From: Hyphomicrobiales bacterium
GTDB lineage: Bacteria; Pseudomonadota; Alphaproteobacteria; Rhizobiales; Rhizobiaceae
Assembly: GCA_900469625.1 (NCBI GenBank)
Contig: UBXV01000009.1
Coordinates: forward strand, 62,001-126,000
DNA length: 64,000 bases
Reading direction: 5' to 3'
The position numbers were made by a program, and so were the translations under genes. Positions 56,703 to 58,058 of this stretch are shown here, piece after piece (position 1 is the stretch's first letter; the number at the start of each line of letters is the position of its first letter). Under the pieces are notes generated by a model. It saw only the letters and a list, made by a program, of their open reading frames with translations, did not search any database and was not told where the DNA came from.

Positions 56703-58058
56703 TTACGAACCTTGCGCGATCGCCGCGCCCAGTCCGACCATCAGCTTTATGAATCCTGGAAAGCTTGTCGCGATCATCGTCGTGTCGTCGACGGCGACCG
56801 GATGTTCCGAGGCGAGGCCCATGACGAGGAAGCTCATGGCAAGGCGAGGGTCGCGATGGGTGGCAACGGCAGCCCCGACGGCATTGCCGAGACCCTTGCC
56901 GCCGGGGCGGCCGCAAACGACGAGAGTACCCTGTTTAGCGTCACACTGGACGCCATTAAGCTTTAACCCTGCGGCAAGCTGAGCCAGGCGATCGGTGTCG
57001 TGGATCCGCAGGTCCTCAGGGCCTGCCATCACCGTGCGCCCCTCGGCAAAGGCGGCCGCAACGGCAAGGATCGGCAGTTCGTCGATCATCGAGGGAACAC
57101 GGTCCGCCGGCACAGTGACACCCTTCAGCCCGGAAAACCGGACACGCAGATCGGCCACGTCCTCGCCGCACTGGATCCGCGCATTCAGCACATCGATCTT
57201 TGCGCCCATCCCCTGCAGCGTCAGGATCAGTCCGGTGCGGGACGGGTTAATCAGCACGTTGAGGATCGTGATGTCGGAGCCTGGCACCAGCAGCGCCGCC
57301 ACCAGCGGAAAGGCCGCCAGGGAAGGGTCGCCGGGGATGTCGATGTCTTGACCAATGAGCCTGCCCTGCCCTTCGAGGCGGATGATGCGTTCGCGGTCAG
57401 CGCCATCCTCGACCGTCAGGTTCGCGCCAAAGGCCTGAAGCAGTCGCTCGGCATGGTCGGCGGTTGGCACCGGCTCGATCACCGTGGTGATGCCGGGCGC
57501 ATTCAGGCCGGCGAACAGCACGGCGGATTTCAGATCGGCCGAGGCCGTCTCCAAGCGGTAGGTCATCGGGCTGGTCGTCTTCGGCCCGTGGAGCGTCACC
57601 GGCAGGTGGCCGCCCCCGGTTGCGATCGCCTGAACGCCCATCTGCCGCAAGGCGTCGAGCACCCACTCCACCGAACACCCACTCGGCGATATCTCGCCGA
57701 CGAAGGTGGTGGCGAAATCGTAAGTGCCGATCAGTCCCATGACGAGCAGGCAACCGGCTCCGCGATTGCCGAAATCGAGCGGCTTTTCCGGTGCAAGCAG
57801 CGCGCCGTTGCCGAGACCGTCTATGATCCAGGCGTCGCCGTCCGGGCGCACCGTCGCGCCGAGCGCCTGCATCGCTCTTGCCGTATCGAAGACGTCATTG
57901 CTCTCCAGCAGGCCGTTTATGCGTGTCCGCCCGGCCGCGAGCCCGCCAAGGATCAGCGCATGGTGAGATATCGATCTGTCGCCGGGACTGCGCACCGCGC
58001 CGGCAAGCGCCGTCGACCTGCGTGCAAGGGCAGACTTTGCGATCGAGCCAGCGGACAT
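56703..58058 (-). CDS. aroA: Class II EPSP-synthase-family protein with altered active site
   Basis: 451 residues, colinear with the CP4-type AroA (455). Framework motifs are kept: PGD-SIS at 25-31, GPK at 158-160, IPGDPS at 241-246, D326 in PSMIDELP, R357 and R405. Residues that bind substrates in the CP4 enzyme are changed: K28 to R, R33 to H, R104 to L, R128 to C, Q175 to D, K353 to H, E354 to D, H404 to P. The gene sits at the canonical aroA-cmk-rpsA position. The symbol is by homology; EPSP synthase activity is doubtful. Confidence 0.85.

Follow-up and report, generated by a model that had tools for sequence, protein, structure and literature searches.

An active-site-eroded class II EPSP synthase homologue at the aroA-cmk-rpsA locus of an Ensifer genome is probably a displaced, non-catalytic protein

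The aroA-like open reading frame in the window (the whole stretch of 64,000 nucleotides analysed here) codes for a full-length homologue of class II (CP4-type) EPSP synthase in which 11 of 19 active-site positions are changed, and we put at roughly two in three the probability that it is a class II EPSP synthase which has been displaced and is now a folded, non-catalytic protein. As read from sequence comparison, it would be the enzyme that the aroA-cmk-rpsA locus originally supplied, a class II EPSP synthase that lost its place when a class I-like AroA, with its gene at another site in the genome, took over EPSP synthesis. The window protein would no longer make EPSP, would be expected to fold as an EPSP-synthase-like two-domain protein, and would have persisted as a non-catalytic pseudoenzyme over much of its own branch.

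The frame starts with ATG, is uninterrupted and codes for 451 amino acids, and residues 1-447 of the protein were aligned by phmmer without a gap with CP4 EPSP synthase (2gg4/2gg6/2gga, 2ggd). CP4 numbering is therefore valid for the window protein and an error of numbering was ruled out. An earlier note on this DNA, made from the sequence alone, had described a full-length frame that is gapless against class II AroA, and this was borne out over those 447 residues. Every one of the eight substitutions that it listed, K28R, R33H, R104L, R128C, Q175D, K353H, E354D and H404P, is present in the alignment, as are GCSVE at positions 127-131, where CP4 has KRPMG, and the retained D326, R357 and R405. 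Three more active-site changes, T101A, R200A and E349D, were found at positions as counted in this analysis. A pseudogene made by a frameshift or a stop was ruled out by the open frame, the gapless alignment and an omega below 1. The protein matches Pfam EPSP_synthase at 1.5e-76 and its NCBIfam aroA score of 321.2 bits passes the cut-off of 287.25, and automatic annotation would probably call it aroA. Thus, full-length homology and the family cut-offs place it in class II AroA, but its S3P/PEP contact residues do not, with 8 of 19 kept and 4 of the 11 that are named in the literature, and RPMxR is absent. This motif is reportedly required for EPSP synthase activity, going by the title of one paper. 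In the accessible part of one article, a pseudoenzyme is a homologue of an enzyme family that is without the conserved catalytic motifs (PMC10211241), and both properties, homology to an enzyme family and missing catalytic motifs, were found in the window protein.

Table 1. Features discussed in the text; positions are those of the window unless a genome and contig or a locus is named.
Feature	Position	Strand	Basis or remark
Class II (CP4-type) AroA homologue, candidate pseudoenzyme	56703..58058	-	11/19 active-site positions changed
RSISHH replacing KSISHR, codons 28-33 (K28R, R33H)	57960..57977	-	counted from ATG at 58058
CSVEW replacing class II RPMxR, codons 128-132	57663..57677	-	motif intact in 99/99 class II-only loci (97 genomes)
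HDTDR replacing KESDR, codons 353-357 (K353H, E354D; R357 kept)	56988..57002	-	alignment
PR replacing HR, codons 404-405 (H404P; R405 kept)	56844..56849	-	alignment
cmk, (d)CMP kinase	55961..56596	-	downstream, same orientation; start by eye; homology to G089 frame (Pfam Cytidylate_kin)
rpsA, ribosomal protein S1, third gene of aroA-cmk-rpsA	54088..55794	-	presumed rpsA from its sequence; start codon picked by eye
Class I-like AroA, 420 aa	G000:C50:32754-34013	-	family search of assembly; motifs by eye
Half-AroA, genus g99, stop-to-stop frame	L236:8480-9235	-	
Half-AroA, genus g99, stop-to-stop frame	L370:2873-4279	-	
Half-AroA, genus g99, stop-to-stop frame	L371:1863-2585	+	
Half-AroA, genus g99, stop-to-stop frame	L360:3245-4519	-	
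G089 half-AroA and cmk in one frame, 459 codons	L369:4503-5879	+	Pfam EPSP_synthase and Cytidylate_kin

The 19 positions are those that we take to be the CP4 active site, after the CP4 and E. coli structures; a literature search for CP4 contact residues gave no list. There is some ascertainment in this list, since the earlier note had already named eight changes, and the control was a subset of 11 positions for which the accessible parts of published papers name the E. coli counterpart, with the E. coli-to-CP4 matching done in this analysis. All 19 positions were invariant in the 59 class II-only reference loci, which represent 57 genomes (G045 and G054 occur twice), and all 19 were kept in 39 of 40 held-out class II-only genomes, the exception being T101P, so that overall 96 of the 97 class II-only genomes keep the complete set. 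Seven distant loci (L005, L006 and L008-L012; L007 was left out of this test) also keep all 19, even though as many as 77 of the 160 other positions that are invariant in the reference set differ in them. In the window copy 11 of the 19 active-site positions were changed compared to 23 of the 160 other invariant positions, all of which lie more than two residues from active-site positions (Fisher, 6.6e-5). When only charged, Q and H invariant residues were compared, 10 of 13 were changed against 5 of 30 (P 2.8e-4), which weakens the explanation that the excess is an artefact of arginine mutability, and in the literature-named subset, as far as those sources go, 7 of 11 were changed (P 5.3e-4).

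The host genome belongs to the genus Ensifer, an assignment that goes by a 15-kb stretch of the congener G199 with 100% identity to the E. adhaerens plasmid NZ_CP015881.1, and its assembly of 6.54 Mb is 99.75% complete. Three proteins of the EPSP_synthase family were found in this assembly. One is the window ORF, another was identified as MurA by inspection of its sequence, and the third is a class I-like AroA on contig C50. By eye, this third protein carries PGSKSITNR, LGNAGTA, RKRP, SSQ, VKECDR and ADHR, and these intact catalytic motifs together with strong purifying selection (omega 0.017-0.032) are what is expected of a class I-like AroA. Chorismate synthase (aroC) was found as well and therefore the aromatic pathway is probably needed. 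The presence of a second AroA with intact motifs rules out the window ORF as the only aroA of the genome, and the true aroA, judged from these motifs, is most likely the C50 gene and not the window ORF. The earlier note had suspected that the true aroA might be elsewhere and had proposed looking for a second intact aroA in the rest of the genome; the search turned up one, of the class I-like type, which supports that suspicion. The C50 protein reads GNAGTATRF, with F at the position corresponding to E. coli P101, which is linked to glyphosate tolerance. A literature search for class I-like aroA as a named class gave nothing. The closest plasmid-borne relatives of this AroA, in Pseudomonas and Erwinia, are 69-72% identical to it. 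Genes next to it in the window genome are also its neighbours in 8 of the 10 other loci compared (G203, G071, G103, G169, G047, G003, G046 and G263), and not in G223 and G291, which suggests one old acquisition for most holders, the others having gained or relocated the gene separately.

Both aroA types were present in all 16 Ensifer genomes searched, the class I copies being 90-97% identical to that of the window genome and the class II copies 64-74%. Among 297 Rhizobiaceae genomes drawn evenly, the class I-like gene was found in 64 (E below 1e-170; G087, in which a class I fragment ends at the contig edge, was left out). A full-length class II gene was also present in 14 of these 64 holders (Ensifer 5, g31 4, g59 3, g47 1 and g97 1), an N-terminal half-AroA alone in 5 (g99 4 and g88 1), and in 45 the class II gene was detected neither by a whole-genome search, in which five candidates per genome were scored, nor in the DNA around cmk, which was examined in all 45, mostly for 1.5 kb on each side, genes farther away being visible to the whole-genome search alone. 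The class II gene thus appears to be dispensable in those 45 holders. When 150 genomes were drawn from across the order, the class I-like gene was present at E below 1e-130 in 9, two of them from Rhizobiaceae. Two genomes carry an additional distant AroA beside an intact class II gene (G068:C8:930776-932026 and G152:C34:250284-251540), with 41% and 43% identity, respectively, to the class I query; both are still counted among the 97 class II-only genomes.

When 27 full-length class II copies from class I holders were examined (16 from Ensifer, 4 from g31, 3 from g59, 1 each from g47 and g97, and 2 from outside the family; G174, which is cut by a contig end and has no class I gene, and the halves of G099, G291, G425 and G089 were left out), one or more of the 19 positions were changed in 12 and none in 15. 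The number of changes was 11 in the window copy, 5 in G154 (one of which, G100A, is the CP4 residue), 4 in G203, 3 in G206, 2 in G210, 1 in G204, 2 in G195, 14 in G146, 9 in G046, 6 in G243 (a genome that is 9% contaminated), 6 in G404 and 16 in G434. Changed copies thus make up 12 of 27 in the holders compared to 1 of 99 class II-only loci (P 1e-8, by a statistic that ignores relatedness). Enrichment at the active site had P below 0.05 in the window copy, G146, G046, G154 (0.028), G243 (0.02) and G434, and not in 6 of the 11 other changed copies (G203, G204, G206, G210, G195 and G404). In the residue-type control with charged, Q and H residues, which covered nine copies and left out G204, G404 and G434, P was below 0.05 for the window copy, G146 and G046 only, and with all polar residues that of G046 was 0.08. 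All 19 positions are kept in 10 of the 16 Ensifer class II copies, and in most Ensifer the class II copy may simply still be an enzyme.

This leads to the question of whether the window copy is retained or is being lost. It is possible, although we consider it unlikely, that the class I gene made the class II gene dispensable and that the latter is a redundant enzyme in slow decay, without any positive function and destined to be lost; active-site changes, being free of cost, would then come first and the rest of the protein would lag behind, with misfolding being costly or the loss being recent. The 45 of 64 holders with no class II gene detected are in keeping with this, as are the graded and idiosyncratic losses inside Ensifer, from 0 to 11 of 19, and the raised omega of 0.12-0.13 in Ensifer class II copies compared to 0.055 on the class II-only outgroup branches. 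These values are from the codon model GY94 (F3x4) on 18 taxa, 14 of the 16 Ensifer (the trees are without G204 and G199) and four class II-only genomes, in which omega was 0.055 in the outgroup class, made up of those four genomes and the branches linking them to Ensifer, 0.118 and 0.134 in two Ensifer clades and 0.201 on the window branch, where an omega of 1 was rejected (2dlnL 101). Because codon usage is biased the analysis was repeated with an MG94-type model, which gave 0.076, 0.141, 0.155 and 0.252 in the same order, rejected an omega of 1 on the window branch (2dlnL 79) and led to the same conclusions.

When the protein was partitioned, with branch lengths fixed from the whole-gene fit, omega at the active site on the window branch was 0.75 (0.40-1.41) by GY94 and 0.78 (0.42-1.41) by MG94, both intervals including 1; in the two flanking residues on each side it was 0.33 and 0.39, respectively, and in the rest of the protein 0.170 (0.138-0.204) and 0.216 (0.175-0.248), respectively. 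The class I gene on the same branch was at 0.017-0.022. That the rest of the window protein is still constrained on its branch speaks against slow decay, and so does simulation. Under neutral drift from a majority-codon stand-in for the ancestor a mean of 8.5-10.9 of the 19 active sites changed together with 68-85 of 155 other conserved sites, compared to 18 of 155 in the window copy, and uniform drift was thus rejected. Taken together, the simulation and the branch omegas show that uniform decay is no explanation and that constraint at the level of the fold has outlasted catalytic constraint, although this fold constraint can reflect the avoidance of misfolding rather than function. The lack of a stop or an indel in the window frame is also a point against slow decay, though at those drift levels 0.8-9.3% of simulated sequences were free of stops and an uninterrupted frame, taken alone, is weak evidence for retention. 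A further point against it is a half-AroA that is conserved across four species of another genus, described below. A synonymous anomaly of the window gene alone was rejected, as cmk (0.94) and class I aroA (1.59) have a long window branch too, compared to 2.0 in the window gene; in rpsA it is 0.089, within the range of its sisters.

An AlphaFold2 model of the window protein, made from 7 sequences, had a mean pLDDT of 87.9 and a pTM of 0.86, with the lowest pLDDT (below 50) at residues 1-7 and at residues 351-354, the former KES loop, and its best structural matches were CP4 EPSP synthase entries with a TM of 0.85-0.91. The model is weakly informative because the homologues in the alignment make an EPSP-synthase fold expected.

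The order aroA-cmk-rpsA is uniform in alpha-proteobacteria, according to the part of a 2005 paper that is accessible (PMC1173090, where the EPSP synthase gene is aroF). Among the class II-only reference loci, aroA and cmk overlap by 1 nt in 10 of the 31 that were measurable (28 of 59 were not measurable by script). In the window the aroA-like ORF is separated from cmk by about 104 nt, and the gap in Ensifer is about 104-1816 nt. It is at least 838 nt in 10 of 16 Ensifer loci, namely L166, L169, L170, L221, L223, L225, L227, L229 and L230 (838-879 nt) and L168 (1816 nt), and 104-319 nt in the other six, including the window. For two of the wider gaps the additional DNA was itself seen. The window gap (56599-56702) contains a block, GCGTGGATTCCATG..GGTTTT, that is common to G209 and G203; a promoter and terminator scan came out near chance, and a terminator-like stem in part of this block was at chance level. 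In all four genomes of genus g99 in the family draw (G099, G173, G245 and G297) an ORF of 212-218 aa that corresponds to about residues 28-235 of AroA, its start codon set by rule at the nearest upstream ATG, ends in a stop that shares 4 nt with the start of cmk. In the half of G099, R33, N98, T101, R104, R128, Q175 and R200 are changed, S29 and S173 are kept and K28 is outside the match, and the other three halves are also without PGDKS and RPMxR, as judged by eye; in a Pfam check of two g99 halves, that of G297 had no match. Omega in these halves was 0.14 by GY94 and 0.25 by MG94 and an omega of 1 was rejected (2dlnL 142 and 109, respectively), with saturated branches, and Nei-Gojobori pairs gave 0.29-0.79. 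Similar half-AroA ORFs stand before cmk in G291 and G425, and in G089 a half-AroA and cmk share one frame, in which a GTG at the start of the kinase makes internal initiation possible; no other full AroA was found in the G089 genome, which is 92% complete and in 770 contigs.

Why the window protein would be retained is therefore sought at this locus. Relatives keep an N-terminal half-AroA directly before cmk, either with a 4-nt overlap or in frame, and on this ground we tentatively suggest, at less than even odds, that the body of AroA may have a non-catalytic role connected with the cmk/rpsA operon or with CMK as such, and a direct link with cmk is weakened by the fact that aroA and cmk do not overlap in Ensifer. 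It is more doubtful that in this bacterial order class II AroA has repeatedly been recruited, after takeover by class I, to accompany CMK as a non-catalytic partner or in translation. Candidate states of such a course may be the full-length eroded copies (the window copy, G146, G046 and G434), the g99 halves and the in-frame arrangement of G089, a path in time being supposition. An improbable alternative is that the ORF is kept only as a translated leader that spares cmk and rpsA, both essential, from polar effects, as a frame that stays open although catalytic residues are lost would suggest, together with the 1-nt overlap in 10 of 31 class II-only loci and the 4-nt overlap in all g99 halves. 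A leader needs an open frame and not conserved amino acids, however, and the rest of the window protein is at an omega of 0.17-0.22; moreover, the window gap of about 104 nt is without any overlap.

Still less probable is a neofunctionalised enzyme in which D326, R357, R405, S29 and S173 form a new site for another anionic substrate. The 8 of 19 positions that are kept include the base-like D326 and two arginines, and some changes are conservative (K28R, E349D and E354D), but G146 keeps R357 and not D326 or R405, G434 keeps D326 and neither R357 nor R405, and omega at the active site is near 1 and not clearly above it. Different residues are lost in the different eroded copies and the replacements differ as well, which disfavours one rebuilt active site or one new chemistry, and to judge by their sequences these copies look like the result of released constraint. 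The earlier note had favoured a new function or a regulatory paralogue over decay; it was right in that uniform decay does not fit a loss concentrated on substrate contacts with the rest constrained, and its rebuilt active site is not supported, as the class II copies of other holders lose different residues. That the window protein continues to work as an EPSP synthase by means of an unusual active site is highly improbable, since, although it passes the NCBIfam aroA cut-off, CSVEW replaces the RPMxR that is intact in 99 of 99 class II-only loci, 7 of the 11 ligand positions named in the accessible literature are changed and an intact AroA is present in the genome.

If the protein is a displaced, non-catalytic class II copy, as we think probable, it can be set beside several known systems. 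It resembles CP4 EPSP synthase (2gg4/2gg6) in being full length, gapless over 447 residues and of the same predicted fold, and differs from it in the 11 of 19 changed active-site positions and in the absence of RPMxR. The closest published case that we found, from the accessible part of its source, is in P. syringae, where a truncated EPSP synthase domain is fused to TyrA and a free-standing EPSP synthase resembling that of A. tumefaciens was laterally acquired (PMC1173090). The authors of that paper inferred in 2005 that A. tumefaciens and P. syringae had acquired an atypical EPSP synthase laterally, with the incoming gene of A. tumefaciens unlinked to cmk and rpsA, and they suggested that the remnant domain of P. 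syringae might become a new regulatory domain (PMC1173090). From what that text gives, the acquired gene is presumably the class I-like gene described here, and the shared history would be an incoming EPSP synthase and a resident domain that loses catalysis. Unlike the P. syringae domain, which is described there as fused to TyrA and as having lost about 200 N-terminal residues, the window protein is free and full-length, and the half-AroA proteins keep the N-terminal half. Pseudomonas putida 4G-1 also has two EPSP synthases per cell, one of them thought to be acquired (PMC3097199); its second AroA was found as glyphosate-tolerant, and in the accessible part of that paper no loss of catalytic-site residues is reported for the resident enzyme. 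In the bifunctional AroA/CMK family (NCBIfam NF008816, PRK11860), AroA is linked with CMK, an arrangement also seen in the G089 frame, but this frame has the N-terminal AroA half only and scores 169.2 bits against the cut-off of 943.

No description of a full-length or half EPSP synthase pseudoenzyme was found in titles and abstract openings, largely of literature outside subscription, and if a role as CMK companion is true, these proteins would make up a family, so far undescribed, of companions of nucleotide metabolism that derive from AroA. The copies form a graded natural series, in soil bacteria, of an essential enzyme after takeover by an acquired isoenzyme: intact, partly or strongly eroded, reduced to a half protein, in frame with cmk, or lost. 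In this series the window protein is a natural test case for the passage from enzyme to non-enzyme, in which a fate of decay and one as a pseudoenzyme become testable. There is also a practical side, in that the family cut-off would name the window protein aroA when the EPSP synthase and glyphosate target is most likely the product of the other gene, on C50. As for the neighbouring DNA, a tRNA-Ala (GGC) was found at 58959-59034 (+), inside ORF 58779-60377 of the list, in its 5' part, and the true start of that ORF is therefore likely to be further downstream.
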